Part shown: positions 37,151-42,408 of the stretch, one piece after another
Numbering within the stretch: the first letter of the stretch is position 1
Layout: every line of letters starts with the position of its first letter
Source of the DNA: a virus
IMG/VR virus record: IMGVR_UViG_3300047289_000036
Span: 1 to 42,837 of that record
Strand: one strand, 5' to 3'
Length of the DNA: 42,837 nt
Made by a program: the position numbers and the translations under genes
The notes under the pieces: model-generated
Told to the model about the DNA's origin: nothing
Database searches by the model: none
The model's input: only the letters and a program-made list of their open reading frames with translations

Positions 37151-37159
37151 TGATATAGT
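37151..37159 (+). promoter_or_regulatory. extended -10 promoter upstream of the replication gene
   Basis: TGATATAGT: a TG-n-TATAGT extended -10 element with no good -35. Predicted start about 37166, the first bases of the structured leader. A sister element TGATATGAT lies at 41508-41516 in front of the second copy of the same RNA structure. Confidence 0.55.
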
Positions 37160-37164
37160 AGTTT

Positions 37165-37242
37165 GAAACACGGCTAGGAATGGCCTGATCTCCATTCCGA
37201 AAAGAGTTACCCCTTCTCCTGCCGCCGTTTCTTTCAAAGGGG
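37165..37242 (+). promoter_or_regulatory. pseudoknotted leader RNA, copy A
   Basis: P1: ACGGC (37170-37174) with GCCGT (37224-37228). An alternative longer helix uses GAAAC (37165-37169) with GTTTC (37227-37231). P2 hairpin: GGAATGG (37177-37183) with CCATTCC (37192-37198). Then GAAAAG (37199-37204), a five-base spacer, P3 strand CCCCTT (37210-37215), CTCCT before the P1 return strand, linker TTCTTTCA, and P3 return strand AAGGGG (37237-37242). P1 and P3 interlock as a pseudoknot. It ends 19 bases before the start of the DUF1376 gene, which lacks an obvious SD. The same plan recurs at 41523-41586. Confidence 0.6.
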
Positions 37243-37261
37243 CTGTGAAAAAGCGGGCTAT

Positions 37262-38023
37262 ATGCACTATTACCAGTTCAACATTGGGGACTATGCTTCC
37301 CATACGCGCCACCTCGACTTGCTTGAGGATTTGGCGTATCGCAGGATACTTGACCTGTACTACCTTCATGAGCGTCCACTGAGTGGCGATGCTTCACTTG
37401 TTGCCAAACAGATTGGCATGAGAGATGACGCTGCGACTGTTCGTGACGTTCTCAATGAGTTCTTTGAACATACGCCTGATGGCTATGTCAATGCCCGTGC
37501 TGACAAAGAAATAGCACATTACCATTCCAAAATTGAACAAGCGTCACGCGCTGGTAAAGCATCCGCTGAACGTAGGTCTAACAACCGTTCAACGGACGTT
37601 CCAACGGACGTTCAACCAAACAATAAACAAGAACCATTAAACAATAAACAAGAACCATATTTAGAAGCTAAAGCTTCTTTGTCGAAAACTGCGTTTCCAA
37701 CCTGTCCGCATCAAGAGATTCTTAACCTCTATGCCAAGCACTTGCCGCAACTTAGCCAACCACGGGTATGGGAAGGTAACCGCCAAGAGGCACTACGCGC
37801 ACGTTGGAGACAAGCTGCCAAACCATCTGACTACTCGCCCGAAGGGTACAAGGACGTTGCTGGTGGCCTGAAGTGGTGGGACTCGTTCTTTGGCTACATT
37901 GCCAACGATACCAAGCTTGCGGCTGGCTTTGAGACTCAAGGTAGAACTTGGCGACCAGACTTAGAGTGGATTGTTACTGCTGGCAACTTTGCCAAAATCA
38001 TTGATGGGAAGTACAACAAATGA
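37262..38023 (+). CDS. DUF1376 replication initiator-type protein, 253 residues
   Basis: Likely binds the phage origin and recruits the host helicase. Residues 1-95 are the DUF1376 domain (MHYYQFNIGDYASHTRHLDL; EDLAYRRILDLYYLHERPLS; a winged-helix fold), followed by a basic linker with repeated NNKQEP. The C-terminal region (RARWRQAAKPSDYSPEGYKD; GLKWWDSFFGYIANDTKLAA; GRTWRPDLEWIVTAGNFAKI) is the typical partner domain of such initiators. No clear SD; translation may depend on the leader RNA. The linker DNA carries iteron-like repeats. Confidence 0.85.
   Translation: MHYYQFNIGDYASHTRHLDLLEDLAYRRILDLYYLHERPLSGDASLVAKQIGMRDDAATVRDVLNEFFEHTPDGYVNARADKEIAHYHSKIEQASRAGKASAERRSNNRSTDVPTDVQPNNKQEPLNNKQEPYLEAKASLSKTAFPTCPHQEILNLYAKHLPQLSQPRVWEGNRQEALRARWRQAAKPSDYSPEGYKDVAGGLKWWDSFFGYIANDTKLAAGFETQGRTWRPDLEWIVTAGNFAKIIDGKYNK
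37582..37658 (+). repeat. iteron-like repeats inside the initiator gene, candidate origin
   Basis: CAACGGACGTT occurs at 37590-37600 and 37602-37612 (12-base period), each with a quasi-palindrome AACG-GA-CGTT; a partial copy precedes at 37582. Directly after come two exact copies of a 20-mer AAACAATAAACAAGAACCAT at 37618-37637 and 37639-37658 (21-base period), which are AT-rich. Iterons next to an AT-rich tract inside the initiator gene is the layout of the lambda O origin. Confidence 0.55.
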
Positions 38024-38328
38024 GCTTTGCTAAACCAAAAACCAAAGACAACTTTGCGGATGACGAATACAAGCGCTTGCAGTGCAGCATGTCAGGCTGT
38101 GGCTCACCTTGGTCAATCCAAATCGACAGGCCAATGTGTACGTTCCATCAGTGGGGTACAACAACCTATGACCTTGATAAACCTGACCACACCATGAATG
38201 CGTTTGCGTCTGGTGATGGCAAAGGTTGGGCAAGACTGATTCTTGAGCGCAAAGCCAAAGGCCAACGTCTATCGCCTATGTCAGTGAAGTTTGCAGAGCA
38301 AGCACTTGAACGGGAGTTGAAGCGATGA
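38020..38328 (+). CDS. putative zinc-binding protein, 102 residues
   Basis: Start coupled to the initiator stop (ATGA). Residues about 22-43 (CSMSGCGSPWSIQIDRPMCT, then FHQW) give C-x4-C ... C-x2-H as probable zinc ligands. A C-terminal charged helix follows (ARLILERKAKGQRLSPMSVK, FAEQALERELKR). Proteins with this pattern follow DUF1376 initiators in other phages; a replication accessory role is likely but unproven. Confidence 0.7.
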   Translation: MSFAKPKTKDNFADDEYKRLQCSMSGCGSPWSIQIDRPMCTFHQWGTTTYDLDKPDHTMNAFASGDGKGWARLILERKAKGQRLSPMSVKFAEQALERELKR

Positions 38329-38600
38329 ACCTCAGTACCGCACATGCCATCCTGAACCAGGTAAAGCTTGGGATGCACTTTTCAGATGCAAAGATAAACG
38401 AAGCCCTTTATACAACTGGTGACCTAGATGTACAAAAAATTGCGCCAAGAGCTTGTAGAACACTACGCGAGGATGGCCTTCAATCCTGCTACGTTAGAAC
38501 AAGCCAGATGGAGTACGAAGAATTTGAAGGACGATCCTACTGGTCTATGGATTGGAATAGAAGACGAAATAGCAGCGAGATTGAAGGAGCTGGAAAATGA
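38325..38600 (+). CDS. hypothetical 91-residue protein overlapping another frame
   Basis: ATGA overlaps at both its start (38328) and its end (38597), so ribosomes should pass through it. Residues 1-35 (MNLSTAHAILNQVKLGMHFS, DAKINEALYTTGDLD) look like a real folded helical start. After residue 35 the frame overlaps the 38428-38643 gene and reads Arg/Ser-rich, less protein-like. It may be a short gene whose tail is read by overprinting, or a gene that lost its stop. Confidence 0.55.
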   Translation: MNLSTAHAILNQVKLGMHFSDAKINEALYTTGDLDVQKIAPRACRTLREDGLQSCYVRTSQMEYEEFEGRSYWSMDWNRRRNSSEIEGAGK

Positions 38601-38643
38601 AGAAGCCACGCAAAAAATACACTCCAAAACCAATTCGCGTTGA
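38428..38643 (+). CDS. hypothetical 71-residue helical protein (overprinted)
   Basis: Lies in a second frame over the last 173 bases of the previous gene. The product MYKKLRQELVEHYARMAFNP, then WSTKNLKDDPTGLWIGIEDE and IAARLKELE looks more like a conserved small phage protein than the frame it overlaps. GGTG lies upstream as a weak site. The last 47 bases also overlap the 159-residue gene. Confidence 0.55.
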   Translation: MYKKLRQELVEHYARMAFNPATLEQARWSTKNLKDDPTGLWIGIEDEIAARLKELENEEATQKIHSKTNSR

Positions 38644-39076
38644 CACTATGCACTATGTAAAGTCTGGGCTATTGAAGGTAGCTGATGTACCAGTAGCAGG
38701 TGCAAAGCTGTCTATCCAAAACCATGTGTCCTTTGATGAGATTCGTGAAGGCCGTGGTGACTCTGACCATGTGGACGTTCTCATCAAGATGGTGAACATA
38801 GCAGAGGCTTTAGCCCACCTGCGACTAGGCCATGATTGGTTGCCAGAGATTGAGCAAGCACAACAAGCCCTGCATGACCTTGGACAGCGTGGCGTGAGTG
38901 GCAAAAACTTTATCTTTAAAGGTGAAGAGTTAAGCATTGTTCAAACCATCCTTGAATTGCATGACGAACAGTTGAGAAACTGTCCTGTCAAAAAGATGGA
39001 ACAAGCCATTGACATGGTGGATAACGAAGAAAAGCATGGGCGTATGCGCCGCATTACACGACTGGAATACGCATGA
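38597..39076 (+). CDS. hypothetical 159-residue early protein
   Basis: Basic start (MKKPRKKYTPKPIRVDTMHY), then mostly helical: DVLIKMVNIAEALAHLRLGH, EIEQAQQALHDLGQRGV, EELSIVQTILELHDEQLRNC. The end is basic (EEKHGRMRRITRLEYA). A type of protein found after initiator genes in phages of Betaproteobacteria; function unknown. ATGA coupling at both ends. Confidence 0.7.
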   Translation: MKKPRKKYTPKPIRVDTMHYVKSGLLKVADVPVAGAKLSIQNHVSFDEIREGRGDSDHVDVLIKMVNIAEALAHLRLGHDWLPEIEQAQQALHDLGQRGVSGKNFIFKGEELSIVQTILELHDEQLRNCPVKKMEQAIDMVDNEEKHGRMRRITRLEYA

Positions 39077-39297
39077 CACACAAAATATGGTGGGACATGG
39101 AAGGTAGCGCTATGCGTCCTTTGCCAAATGAAGACATGGAAGAGTTTGCTAAACGCATTTCAGAGATTGCTTGGTCAAATGGTCAATACATAGAGCGTGA
39201 GGCGTGTGCAAAGGTGTGTGATGATTACGAAGGGGAAGATTACGATACTGTTTCTGACATACTTTCCATTGCGATCCGAGCAAGAGGTGAAGCATGA
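39073..39297 (+). CDS. hypothetical 74-residue early protein
   Basis: ATGA overlap with the previous gene. The second half has the EREACAKVCDDYEGEDYDTV, then ILSIAIRARGEA pattern that recurs as a module in many phage proteins of unknown role (the I-R-A-R-G end). Start could also be the ATG at 39112 (within it), but coupling favours 39073. The stop overlaps the RuvC-like gene. Confidence 0.65.
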   Translation: MTHKIWWDMEGSAMRPLPNEDMEEFAKRISEIAWSNGQYIEREACAKVCDDYEGEDYDTVSDILSIAIRARGEA

Positions 39298-39746
39298 TGT
39301 ACTTAGGCATAGACCCCGGCTACACAGGTGCTTGGGGGTTGATTGACCACAATGGCAAATACCAATCTTGTGGCGACATGTTGCACAACGAGAAGCACAT
39401 TCTGTCTCGCGCTGTTTGGGCAGAGATGTGCCAAGCAATTGACCGACAGGATGTGGAAATCATCATTGAATCTGTTCATTCGATGCCAGGCCAAGGTGTC
39501 AGCTCCAGCTTTAAGTTTGGAATGGCCTTTGGAGCCGCTATAGCGATCACAGAGCGCTTTAATTGTCCTTGGCATCTGGTTACCCCTCAGAAGTGGAAAA
39601 AGGCCTTAAAACTCGATTCAGACAAGAATCATTCTTTAGAACTGGCGCGAGAGCTTTGGCCTAACGCACCACTGTCTCGCAAAAAAGACAATGGCAGGGC
39701 AGAGGCGTTGTTGTTAGCGGAGTATTTGCGCCGTGAGCAACAGTAA
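39294..39746 (+). CDS. RuvC-like Holliday junction resolvase
   Basis: RNase H-fold nuclease that resolves branched replication/recombination DNA before packaging. Acidic active-site residues in place: Asp7 in YLGIDPGYTG, Glu59 in VEIIIESVH, and Asp132/Glu137 in KDNGRAEALLLAEYL. The M-P-G-Q-G-V-S-S stretch (64-71) and TPQKWKKAL (97-105) are usual in phage RuvC-like enzymes. 150 residues, normal size. Confidence 0.88.
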   Translation: MMYLGIDPGYTGAWGLIDHNGKYQSCGDMLHNEKHILSRAVWAEMCQAIDRQDVEIIIESVHSMPGQGVSSSFKFGMAFGAAIAITERFNCPWHLVTPQKWKKALKLDSDKNHSLELARELWPNAPLSRKKDNGRAEALLLAEYLRREQQ

Positions 39747-40035
39747 GCACTTCATCAGTTGGGACGGATTGGACTTCAAAGAAAAGGAGTCTGACTACAA
39801 CAAGTACCACAAGAAACCTGAGCATTTCAAAGAGACTTTTGTTGGTCCACGGAACACTTGGGGTGGTGCTAGGCGTGGTGCTGGACGTAAGCCTTGGAAA
39901 AAAGTTGAAGAAAAACCACAAGATGGCTTGACTGTACAACTAAAACTGAATAACATACAGGTTATGTTACTTAAAGAAATGGGTAACGGAAGCTTGGACG
40001 CAGGTGTTCAGGCGTTAATTGAAAAGGAAATGTAA
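39733..40035 (+). CDS. basic AT-hook-like protein, 100 residues
   Basis: GTG start at 39733 within the resolvase end. The centre GGARRGAGRKPWKKVEEK contains an R-G-A-G-R-K-P core like an AT-hook, common in phage DNA-binding and packaging proteins. The C-terminus is helical (LNNIQVMLLKEMGNGSLDAG, VQALIEKEM) and may dimerise like a ribbon-helix-helix protein. TAATG coupling to the next gene. Confidence 0.65.
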   Translation: MSNSKHFISWDGLDFKEKESDYNKYHKKPEHFKETFVGPRNTWGGARRGAGRKPWKKVEEKPQDGLTVQLKLNNIQVMLLKEMGNGSLDAGVQALIEKEM

Positions 40036-40181
40036 TGAATAGAGAACAAGCTTTGGAGTTGCTTAAATTGTTGTCGGCACTTGAATCGTGGTCGTTTGCT
40101 GATAAACACGCATTACCAGACTATTTGTACGAAAAGCTGGCAGATGCAATGGAAATTCTGACAAAGGAAATTCTGAAATGA
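40035..40181 (+). CDS. 48-residue helical early protein
   Basis: The start overlaps the previous stop (TAATG) and the stop overlaps the next start (ATGA). The product: MNREQALELLKLLSALESWS, then FADKHALPDYLYEKLADAME and an ILTKEILK end. All-helical; unassigned. Confidence 0.6.
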   Translation: MNREQALELLKLLSALESWSFADKHALPDYLYEKLADAMEILTKEILK

Positions 40182-40282
40182 ATTGGCCCTTCCCTAGCTA
40201 TCCACCAGTACCGTGGACAAAAGCACAAGAAAAAGCGTATCAACAAGCGCAACGCGCACAACTGCCAGAAAGCCCTTTATGA
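40178..40282 (+). CDS. 34-residue Pro/Gln-rich peptide
   Basis: ATGA overlap at both ends. The product MNWPFPSYPPVPWTKAQEKA, then YQQAQRAQLPESPL has an aromatic-proline start resembling short phage peptides that sit in similar chains. Translation is likely from coupling, function unknown. Confidence 0.5.
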   Translation: MNWPFPSYPPVPWTKAQEKAYQQAQRAQLPESPL

Positions 40283-40530
40283 ACATCAAATCTCAAACAA
40301 TGATTGACGTTATGCAAGCCATGATTGATACGGAAAACGTATGGCTAACGCAAAAAGACAGAAACATAGACGACATGATTAACCCAAACGCTCCAGTCAT
40401 CATTCAGATTGGCGACTATGGTTACGAAATCCAAAGTGTTGGCGGCGATGGAGAGGTGGAAGGGTTTGTCATCATGTGCAAAGAGAATCCCGTGTGCAAA
40501 TGGGAAGGCATGGAGTGCATTAAGTTATGA
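40279..40530 (+). CDS. hypothetical 83-residue early protein
   Basis: Start at 40279 (ATGA with the previous stop) rather than the longer upstream frame. The product: helical start (MIDVMQAMIDTENVWLTQKD), then a beta half (VIIQIGDYGYEIQSVGGDGE; VEGFVIMCKENPVCKWEGME). Ends with ATGA coupling. Unassigned. Confidence 0.65.
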   Translation: MNIKSQTMIDVMQAMIDTENVWLTQKDRNIDDMINPNAPVIIQIGDYGYEIQSVGGDGEVEGFVIMCKENPVCKWEGMECIKL

Positions 40531-41057
40531 CTAATAAACAAACACTTGAGTTGGCTCTTAATGCTTTGAAATGTTTATTTGGATTGCCAGACAAATTTAC
40601 TGGTGAAGGCGGTGATGTTGCTGTCTGGCGCTTGGGCGGTTCATATCGAGCGCAAGAAGCCATCAAAGCCCTAGAAGAAGCACAACCCAAGCAAGAGCAG
40701 GGTGAGCCTGTGGCGTGGAAGCCGATTGAGACTGCACCAAAAGATGGGTCAATGATACTTATTTGCCTACCAAGACAAATGAATATCGTGGTTCGTGCTT
40801 GGTACAACAAAATCCACAACTTTTGGCTAACAGATTACGAGGGAGAAGGTGGTATTACTAGACCAACATATTTCCATGAAGGAGATTTATGGCATCCAAT
40901 CCCGCCTCTTTACGCCACACCACAACAACGCACATGGGTTGGGCTGACGGATGAAAAAAAGTACGCACTGGCTGATGATGTTGCGCGGCGTGGAGTTCCT
41001 GTATTTGAGGCCATCTGCGAAGCCGAAGCCAAACTCAAGGAGAAGAACGGTGCGTAA
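40527..41057 (+). CDS. mosaic early protein with DUF551-like domain, 176 residues
   Basis: Three parts. A helical start (LELALNALKCLFGLPDKFTG; RAQEAIKALEEAQPKQEQGE), then a DUF551-like segment (WKPIETAPKDGSMILICLPR, later YFHEGDLWHPIPPLYATPQQ) and a last module, RTWVGLTDEKKYALADDVAR. Such mosaics of short exchangeable modules are common in phage early regions; the biochemical role is unknown. Overlaps the next gene by 8 bases. Confidence 0.7.
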   Translation: MTNKQTLELALNALKCLFGLPDKFTGEGGDVAVWRLGGSYRAQEAIKALEEAQPKQEQGEPVAWKPIETAPKDGSMILICLPRQMNIVVRAWYNKIHNFWLTDYEGEGGITRPTYFHEGDLWHPIPPLYATPQQRTWVGLTDEKKYALADDVARRGVPVFEAICEAEAKLKEKNGA

Positions 41058-41184
41058 GCCCATAGGTATCACAGTCCCATATCGAGAGGTTGGATACAAA
41101 GAGAAGTCAACCCTTGAGGAGCTTGAAAAGAAAATCAAAGCCCTTGAGAAACGTATTGAACAACTAGAGAAGGAAAAGAAATGA
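41050..41184 (+). CDS. 44-residue leucine-zipper-like peptide
   Basis: GTG start at 41050, with AAGGAGAAG a few bases upstream in the end of the previous gene. The product: MRKPIGITVPYREVGYKEKS, then TLEELEKKIKALEKRIEQLE with a KEKK end, heptads of Leu/Ile typical of a parallel coiled coil. Probably oligomerises; may be a subunit or adaptor. Confidence 0.6.
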   Translation: MRKPIGITVPYREVGYKEKSTLEELEKKIKALEKRIEQLEKEKK

Positions 41185-41510
41185 CCGAAGTAGAAGCACA
41201 AAAAGCAATCGACTTTATACGTGATAACGCTCCTAAATTTGCCCAAGCAAAATCAGAGCGCACATACATTGAGAACGCATTGAAGAGCAAGAAAGCCATT
41301 CTGATGGCTGACAGTGATGCCAGCTCTTTGGGTGCAAAAGAAATGTATGCCTATGCACATCCTGACTACATGACGCTGTTGCATGGCTTGAAGGCTGCTG
41401 TGGCAATTGAGGAAGAGATGATTTGGATGATGAAGGCGGCGCAACTTCGCTTTGAACATTGGAAAACACAACAGTTCAATCAAAGAGTTGAGGCTCGTGC
41501 TTTAGGCTGA
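41181..41510 (+). CDS. hypothetical 109-residue helical early protein
   Basis: ATGA overlap with the zipper gene. Helical (EAQKAIDFIRDNAPKFAQAK; GLKAAVAIEEEMIWMMKAAQ, then LRFEHWKTQQFNQRVEARAL), with a conserved-looking KKAILMADSDASSLGAKEMY centre typical of a phage family without assigned function. The stop codon (41508-41510) is the first three bases of the extended -10 element of copy B. Confidence 0.7.
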   Translation: MTEVEAQKAIDFIRDNAPKFAQAKSERTYIENALKSKKAILMADSDASSLGAKEMYAYAHPDYMTLLHGLKAAVAIEEEMIWMMKAAQLRFEHWKTQQFNQRVEARALG

Positions 41511-41516
41511 TATGAT
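41508..41516 (+). promoter_or_regulatory. extended -10 promoter upstream of the HNH-like gene
   Basis: TGATATGAT: TG-n-TATGAT extended -10, predicted start about 41523, exactly where the second leader RNA begins. It shares form and spacing with the element at 37151-37159. Confidence 0.5.
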
Positions 41517-41522
41517 TAGGGT

Positions 41523-41586
41523 ATGGCTACCTTTAGCGGGGGAAAAGGCGATTCGTTACCGCCCTGCCATGTTCTTTTAGTAACGA
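41523..41586 (+). promoter_or_regulatory. pseudoknotted leader RNA, copy B
   Basis: P1: ATGGC (41523-41527) with GCCAT (41566-41570). After TA comes a weak P2 (CCT 41530-41532 with GGG 41539-41541), then GAAAAG (41542-41547) and a five-base spacer. The P3 strand is TCGTTAC (41553-41559), CGCCCT precedes the P1 return strand, the linker is GTTCTTTTA (41571-41579) and the P3 return strand is GTAACGA (41580-41586). Order and lengths match copy A, while P1 and especially P3 differ in sequence but stay paired. It lies 23 bases before the HNH-like start, whose own site GAGGTG is at 41600-41605. Confidence 0.55.
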
Positions 41587-41609
41587 TTTCACCAATAACG
41601 AGGTGCAAA

Positions 41610-42056
41610 ATGAAATCACACGGTCACACAAAAAACCGTTCCAAAAGTCGAACCTACTACACATGGACATCTATGAAAGATAGATGCAACAGGGAATCTT
41701 ATTTCCTGTATAAAAACTATGGTGGAAGAGGTATTACATACTGTGAGGCATGGGAAACATTTGATAAGTTTTTGGCTGACATGGGCGAAAGACCAGATGG
41801 ACTAACCCTTGATCGGTTGGATGTAAACGGCAACTATTCCCCTGAAAACTGCAAATGGTCAAACAAGCTTGACCAAGCTAGAAACAGGAGAAATATGAAG
41901 AAATTTGAACATCAAGGAAAAGACTATCTTTTGGTTGAATTGGCTGAAATTTATGGAATACCTTCAAAAATAATCCAGCAAAGAATGAAAAGAGATGGCA
42001 TGACGTTAGAACAAGCTTTGACTAAAACGAAAAGAAAATGGACAAAAAATGTATAG
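41610..42056 (+). CDS. HNH-type homing endonuclease-like protein, 148 residues
   Basis: Start at 41610 set by GAGGTG; an upstream in-frame ATG at 41523 lies in the leader RNA. Core: TWTSMKDRCNRESYFLYKNY, GGRGITYCEAWETFDKFLAD, then LTLDRLDVNGNYSPENCKWS and DQARNRRN. The D-R-x-D ... P-x-N-C-x-W ... N pattern (68-95) looks like an HNH variant, with C26, C45 and C81 as possible zinc ligands. C-terminal DNA-binding-like helices (VELAEIYGIPSKIIQQRMKR). AT-rich codons (AGA, AAA, ATA) suggest recent gain. Overlaps the DUF1364 gene by 8 bases. Confidence 0.7.
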   Translation: MKSHGHTKNRSKSRTYYTWTSMKDRCNRESYFLYKNYGGRGITYCEAWETFDKFLADMGERPDGLTLDRLDVNGNYSPENCKWSNKLDQARNRRNMKKFEHQGKDYLLVELAEIYGIPSKIIQQRMKRDGMTLEQALTKTKRKWTKNV

Positions 42057-42408
42057 AGACCCTAACCTACTGAAGCTGGCGCAAGGCCAGAAGTGCCTCC
42101 TTGAATGCCATCCATACTGTGATGGCGATGAAGGTTCAACAACCGTGGCCTGTCATAGTAATGAGCTTGTACATGGCAAAGGCCGTGGCCTCAAGGCTGA
42201 TGACTGCATGAGTGTGTGGGGCTGCTACAAGTGCCATACATGGTTGGACCAAGGCCCGATGTCAAAGACTGAAAAAAAGAAGCTGTTTGACAAGGCATGG
42301 TTCAAGCAAGTACACGAATGGTGGCTAATCGCAGATAATATGGCCTTGAAACCTTGGAAGGTAGAAGCTGCCTTACGGGTGCTAAACCACATTGGAGCGA
42401 AGAAATGA
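42049..42408 (+). CDS. DUF1364 (Ref-like) nuclease-type protein, 119 residues
   Basis: Pattern LLKLAQGQKCLLECHPYCDG (C16, C20, C24), VACHSNELVHGKGRGLKADD, then WGCYKCHTWLD (C59, C62, H63). This is the DUF1364 layout, a zinc-binding HNH-like family related to the phage recombination enhancement factor. Probably acts on recombination or replication intermediates with ERF and the RuvC-like enzyme. Its start overlaps the HNH-like gene, so the insertion left it intact. ATGA coupling to the last gene. Confidence 0.8.
   Translation: MYRDPNLLKLAQGQKCLLECHPYCDGDEGSTTVACHSNELVHGKGRGLKADDCMSVWGCYKCHTWLDQGPMSKTEKKKLFDKAWFKQVHEWWLIADNMALKPWKVEAALRVLNHIGAKK

Follow-up and report, generated by a model that had tools for sequence, protein, structure and literature searches.

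What is the pseudoknotted RNA structure that is present twice in the virus record IMGVR_UViG_3300047289_000036, and what does it do for the genes that follow it? The original prediction, made from the letters of this 42,837-nucleotide (nt) stretch (hereafter the window), described two copies, A and B, built on one plan (a −10 box, stem P1, TA, a hairpin P2, GAAAAG, the return strand of P1, a pyrimidine linker and a pairing strand), did not recognise the RNA, and offered a put-like antiterminator, a riboswitch, an antisense-type RNA or a 5′ stabiliser as possible functions. By the alignments and comparisons described here both copies are real RNAs of the Rfam family int-alpA (RF02996), and we think it probable that they act in cis, as 5′ leaders that regulate how the next gene is translated, by means of a switch in which the loop of a third hairpin (P3) would pair either with a strand shortly downstream of P1 (R1) or with a second copy of that strand (R2) at the Shine–Dalgarno sequence.

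The comparison with Rfam, which had been proposed as a check, gives the unfamiliar RNA its name. In a scan of the 42.8-kb window the sole RNA other than tRNA was int-alpA, at 41520–41585 with 37.6 bits, which is copy B and lies above the curated cut-off of 35.8 bits; copy A (37167–37241) reaches 29.6 bits at a relaxed threshold, below that cut-off, with E values of 2.7e-4 (401 bases searched) and 6.8e-6. In the cmscan alignments both copies nevertheless run end to end with the model (positions 1–71 of 71), including the 3′ tail that is R1, so that the common plan described originally is borne out both by the sequence and by the family alignment. Both copies also have the int-alpA junction, in which P1 closes P2 and P3 with the joiners UA, GAAAA and CU, and both have its carriage on mobile elements, the window being an IMG/VR virus record and the relatives lying in virus records and in an integrase-bearing Escherichia coli island. 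The P1/P2/P3 plan is identical to that of the model, whose tail AgGG corresponds to R1 of the window copies, and the family name reflects the position of the motif in E. coli satellites, between an integrase gene and a small helix–turn–helix (HTH) gene. The model differs in that it ends at R1 and is typed ‘Gene; sRNA’ (small RNA); R2, a further hairpin (P4), the fixed distance to the start codon and the association with homing-endonuclease and replication genes all lie outside it, and the R2/P4 element with its coupling to the ribosome-binding site appears to be the new part. Among the open-access papers searched, only one names int-alpA, in a list, and a paper about an E. coli satellite makes no reference to a leader RNA. 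When the copies were compared by BLAST with annotated phages, the result was either nothing or neighbouring genes only, and family-model and pattern searches were therefore used.

In copy B (all features of both copies lie on the + strand) a single promoter-like site, with TTGAGG at −35, a 17-nt spacer and the extended −10 TGATATGAT (41508–41516, hexamer 41511–41516; 9/12), precedes an int-alpA core at 41520–41573 composed of P1 (41520–41527 with 41566–41573), P2 (41530–41541), GAAAA and P3 (41547–41563). The P3 stem is GGCG..CGCC and carries in its loop the strand TCGTTAC (41553–41559), whose pseudoknot partner is R1, GTAACGA (41580–41586), and for which R2, TAACGA (41596–41601), is a possible second partner. 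R2 is joined to the GAGG Shine–Dalgarno sequence and sits in the loop of the P4 hairpin CACC-AATAACGA-GGTG (41590–41605), which ends 4 nt before the ATG of an HNH endonuclease gene (41610–42056; phrog_3377, E 1.4e-46). The longest open reading frame (ORF) of this gene would begin at an ATG inside P1 and run in frame through the leader (41523–41609), and automatic gene callers may annotate the int-alpA RNA as protein in this way. We rejected ATG 41523 as the true start, because the HNH profile begins at residue 6 counted from the 41610 start and because similar leaders carry either other bases at this place or stops in frame; its presence inside P1 is probably due to chance.

Copy A has its extended −10 TGATATAGT (37151–37159, hexamer 37154–37159) 7 nt before P1, and its core occupies 37167–37229, as delimited by the RF02996 match and by the relatives L010, L377 and L384. 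The strands of P1, AACACGGC (37167–37174) and GCCGCCGTT (37221–37229), pair as CGGC/GCCG, an interruption and then AAC/GTT, a register kept in the three relatives; the register ACGGC/GCCGT put forward originally is unavailable in them, as they lack GCCGT, and has to be given up. The UA joiner, P2 (37177–37198), GAAAA, P3 (37204–37218) and CU follow in order, the P3 stem being GAG..CTC with CCCCTT in its loop (37210–37215). R1 is AAGGGG (37237–37242), and R2, AAGCGGG (37251–37257), lies at the Shine–Dalgarno position of a gene for a DUF1376 primosomal or replication-initiation protein (37262–38023; PF07120, E 6e-23; a primosomal protein in PHROGs). The relative L010 pairs a loop TCCCTT with R2 AAGCGGA, a compensating change that matches the loop:R2 pairing of copy A.

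These two structures refine the original description more than they overturn it. The pairings CCCCTT/AAGGGG and TCGTTAC/GTAACGA that it named are present, but their upstream strand is the loop of a hairpin, P3, that had been missed, and the pairing itself is a pseudoknot with R1; the structured unit also continues past R1 to the start codon, through R2 in both copies and P4 in copy B. The change of the outer P1 pair from C–G in copy A to T–A in copy B holds. Compensatory change had been taken as the sign of a real RNA; two copies alone make that argument weak, and it is the relatives that give it force.

These relatives were gathered from virus records and bacterial genomes by pattern scans and the Rfam model, and 151 sites were chosen by a script that considered P1, P2, P3 and the three joiners only; in 142 of them a start codon is found 20–60 nt after P1. 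After clustering, such that those kept were less than 80% similar, 103 non-redundant sites remained for permutation tests. The pseudoknot was scored in these as the longest Watson–Crick helix that the P3 loop can form with the 22 nt following P1, with loops permuted among sites as the null. The loop forms 5.50 bp with its own R1 as against 3.29 bp after permutation (z=25.4), and because loop sequences are unrelated between members this fit represents massive compensatory change; by this test the loop:R1 pseudoknot is beyond chance in the family. The loop also fits its own R2 (4.91 versus 3.46 bp, z=16.1). Since many loops resemble an anti-Shine–Dalgarno sequence, the R2 test was repeated on loops without CCT, TCC or CTC, and gave z=9.1; the negative controls gave z=0.3 for pairing of the loop with the first codons and z=−1.5 with the 22 nt before P1. 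The end of R2 lies at a median of 7 nt before the start codon, the Shine–Dalgarno position, with a median of 33 nt from P1 to the start. The sequences flanking R2 are complementary to each other (P4; 3.60 versus 2.56 bp permuted, z=12.2), such that R2 usually falls in the P4 loop and the 3′ strand of P4 adjoins the start codon. In L003, for example, R1 is TAGGCA and P4 is GATTAC-GGAGGCAA-GTAATC, followed by ATG, and in L251 the sequence GCTAA is present twice, as R1 and as R2.

The same relationships were recovered in a replication set of 28 loci, picked in the genomes of one class by the Rfam model alone and not by patterns (R1 z=5.9, R2 z=5.4, P4 z=3.7, control −1.4). The ATG of an ORF of at least 40 amino acids lies 18–64 nt downstream in 24 of the 28, as compared with 23% of random positions, and the joiners are conserved as UA in 25, GAAAA in 17 and CU in 20. 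Variants of the E. coli satellites, collected with blastn, further add to the homologues with compensatory changes that the original prediction had looked for: P1 and P2 covary, with six pairs changed on both sides and 98.9% of cells paired (at most 42% in slid controls), P1 changing from ATTGAGCC/GGCTCAAT to ACCGGAAC/GTTCCGGT, and a loop change from GCCTTA to ACCTTA being met by a change in R1 from TAAGGC to TAAGGT. Minimum-energy folding of the two window copies gave no support (z +1.2 and +0.2), as a pseudoknot is expected to escape plain folding; the support is comparative.

Where the RNA begins and ends bears directly on its role. Matches to TATAAT (at least 5/6) cluster 0–10 nt before P1, with 50 sites there as against 30 in the next 34 positions; the −10 hexamers of relatives concentrate at 2–8 nt from P1, and the spacing of the −10 hexamer to P1 peaks at 3 and 7 nt, which are the spacings of copies B and A. 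No terminator-like site was seen at either window copy in a consensus scan, by which measure processing could still release the RNA. From the −10 cluster and the lack of a terminator-like site we infer that transcription begins at P1 or inside it and that the RNA extends to the start codon as a 5′ leader. In this respect comparison supports the claim that a real pseudoknotted RNA recurs at the 5′ ends of transcripts.

The genes that this leader precedes are diverse. That those behind copies A and B (DUF1376 and HNH endonuclease) are unrelated had been recognised at the outset, and the same is true across the family. Among 75 first genes searched with Pfam and PHROGs, the Pfam matches (counts may overlap) were HNH_3 (7), GIY-YIG (5), NUMOD3 (4), HNH (3), DUF927 (3), DUF1376 (2), LAGLIDADG (1) and KilA-N (1), and the PHROGs matches were to HNH and homing endonucleases as well as to primosomal proteins and primases. 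Leaders of the copy B type, almost identical in sequence, precede HNH-like genes and also (L392, L445) the DUF1376 gene, which in the window stands behind copy A. In L457, L458 and the E. coli matches at the rph/yicC locus the order is integrase, leader, hypothetical gene, HTH gene, antirepressor and TOPRIM/DUF927 gene. On these gene contexts, the int-alpA leader is a module independent of the downstream gene, placed before unrelated genes for homing endonucleases, replication proteins and satellite functions. With the DNA of one satellite leader as query, 198 of 5426 complete E. coli genomes gave matches, in an integrated satellite-like element, and in a sample of 274 genomes of one proteobacterial class int-alpA is present in 36. 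Most records carry one copy; one record (G050) has two (L123 and L139), separated by about 3 kb and lying on opposite strands, an arrangement like that of divergent operons; the first of the two fits R2 better than R1.

Comparison across the family shows the leader position, the three-way junction, the loop:R1 pairing and the complementarity of the loop to R2 at the Shine–Dalgarno sequence, with P4 as a tendency, and it is on these elements that we base a potential mechanism. In this comparison the transcript begins at about P1, and P1, P2 and P3 meet in a three-way junction with the conserved joiners UA, GAAAA and CU; the loop:R1 and loop:R2 pairings would be mutually exclusive. With the loop on R1 the leader would be in an ON state, R1 serving as a decoy that keeps the loop off the Shine–Dalgarno sequence and leaves the ribosome site free, and with the loop on R2 it would be OFF, a kissing contact with the P4 loop masking the ribosome site. 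The mean predicted duplex energies of the two pairings are near-equal (−7.05 kcal/mol for loop:R1 and −7.23 kcal/mol for loop:R2), which is what a bistable switch needs. The balance might perhaps be set by a small molecule or host protein that binds the junction, or by the order of folding during transcription; the conserved joiners suggest that something binds the junction, and since the leader stands before many unrelated genes, any cue that it reports should be a general one, from the cell or the infection, and not the gene product.

Several observations weigh against such a switch, or against its generality. R2 offers at least five Watson–Crick pairs in 56 of 94 scored representatives, and is thus not universal, and the Pseudomonas-type members L144 and L169 fit R1 only. 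In copy A the R2 pairing is imperfect (five pairs with the P3 loop, one of them G–U, plus one C–C mismatch), and a clear P4 is not evident in its sequence, so that the case for the switch is strongest in copy B and in the family as a whole. Complementarity to the Shine–Dalgarno sequence could, alternatively, reflect simple masking with no switch involved.

The corresponding static reading, in which the pseudoknot protects the 5′ end while P4 or loop:R2 merely lowers translation, strikes us as unlikely. It has precedents, in that some phage homing endonuclease genes (mobE, segB) are known to have their ribosome-binding sites masked, and endonucleases are common behind int-alpA; but R1 and R2 repeat one sequence and each of them follows the loop, where one would suffice for a static mask, and the conserved junction bases in loci selected by covariance model suggest recognition. 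The ribosome-site hairpins of I-TevI, mobE and segB likewise place a structured Shine–Dalgarno sequence before a stand-alone endonuclease gene, but they are simple, without a three-way junction, pseudoknot or decoy copy; an effect as a 5′ stabiliser, one of the functions first offered, may be a side effect of the int-alpA leader. A little less likely still is a trans-acting sRNA, released as a core of about 70 nt, whose P3 loop would pair with the Shine–Dalgarno sites of other messages. Its Rfam type, the frequent anti-Shine–Dalgarno-like loop and the pyrimidine run after P1 would all suit such an RNA, yet neither window copy has a terminator-like site by the consensus scan, the start codon follows P1 at the short median distance given above, the loop fits the R2 of its own gene better than that of other members, and the codes differ between two copies within one phage (in the window and at L043). 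The antisense option is disfavoured with it, given the missing terminator-like site and a loop code that matches the Shine–Dalgarno sequence of its own gene.

The put RNA of phage HK022 binds RNA polymerase, suppresses downstream terminators and needs no protein factor, and it shares with int-alpA a length of about 70 nt, a place at the promoter-proximal 5′ end of early transcripts and occurrence as two copies in a phage; the opposed copies in G050, like putL and putR, first suggested a put-like antiterminator to us. We dropped this candidate, and now regard it as decidedly improbable, on the evidence of R2 and P4 and because RF02996 finds nothing above chance in the HK022 genome (best 10.3 bits, E 0.6). 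Moreover, put is a different fold (two stem–loops with a triplex, not a three-way junction with a loop pseudoknot) that acts on RNA polymerase, whereas int-alpA is coupled to the start codon and the ribosome-binding site, a coupling that has no role in antitermination, and most records hold a single copy. That R1 and R2, short direct repeats 15–20 nt apart downstream of a promoter, are DNA operators for a regulator and not RNA elements is hardly credible, as both co-change as complements of the P3 loop, across P1 and in many lineages (z=25 and 16), which would be needless for a DNA site.

A riboswitch-like leader is the best match among the functions first proposed, given the link of the RNA to the ribosome-binding site of the gene that it precedes. 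In the preQ1-II, SAM-II and tetrahydrofolate (THF) riboswitches and in PK-repZ, a pseudoknot of a loop with a 3′ strand near the Shine–Dalgarno sequence governs translation; int-alpA differs in that its loop has two partner copies, one near and one at the Shine–Dalgarno sequence. A riboswitch would join a conserved ligand-binding core to an expression platform at the ribosome-binding site; in the comparison the joiners are conserved, and R1 and R2 form a candidate platform at the Shine–Dalgarno sequence. More tentatively than for the switch itself, we suggest that int-alpA may be a translational switch of new design, widespread in phages and satellites, with a private loop code and a junction that senses a general signal of the cell or the infection, and possibly an unrecognised class of riboswitch. 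If the R1/R2 switch is true, what is now an orphan among the sRNAs would prove to regulate translation in cis, and the leader would show how a single module is shared by phages, satellites and homing endonucleases although the genes behind it are unrelated; it would also offer a small junction RNA for ligand search.

Finally, the gene after the HNH endonuclease gene (42049–42408) matches the putative nuclease YbcO (PF07102), and 42405–42761 matches the PHROGs family ‘starvation-inducible transcriptional regulator’ (Dps-like; E 1e-23). A tRNA gene lies in the left part of the window, at 2613–2685 (RF00005, 70 bits).

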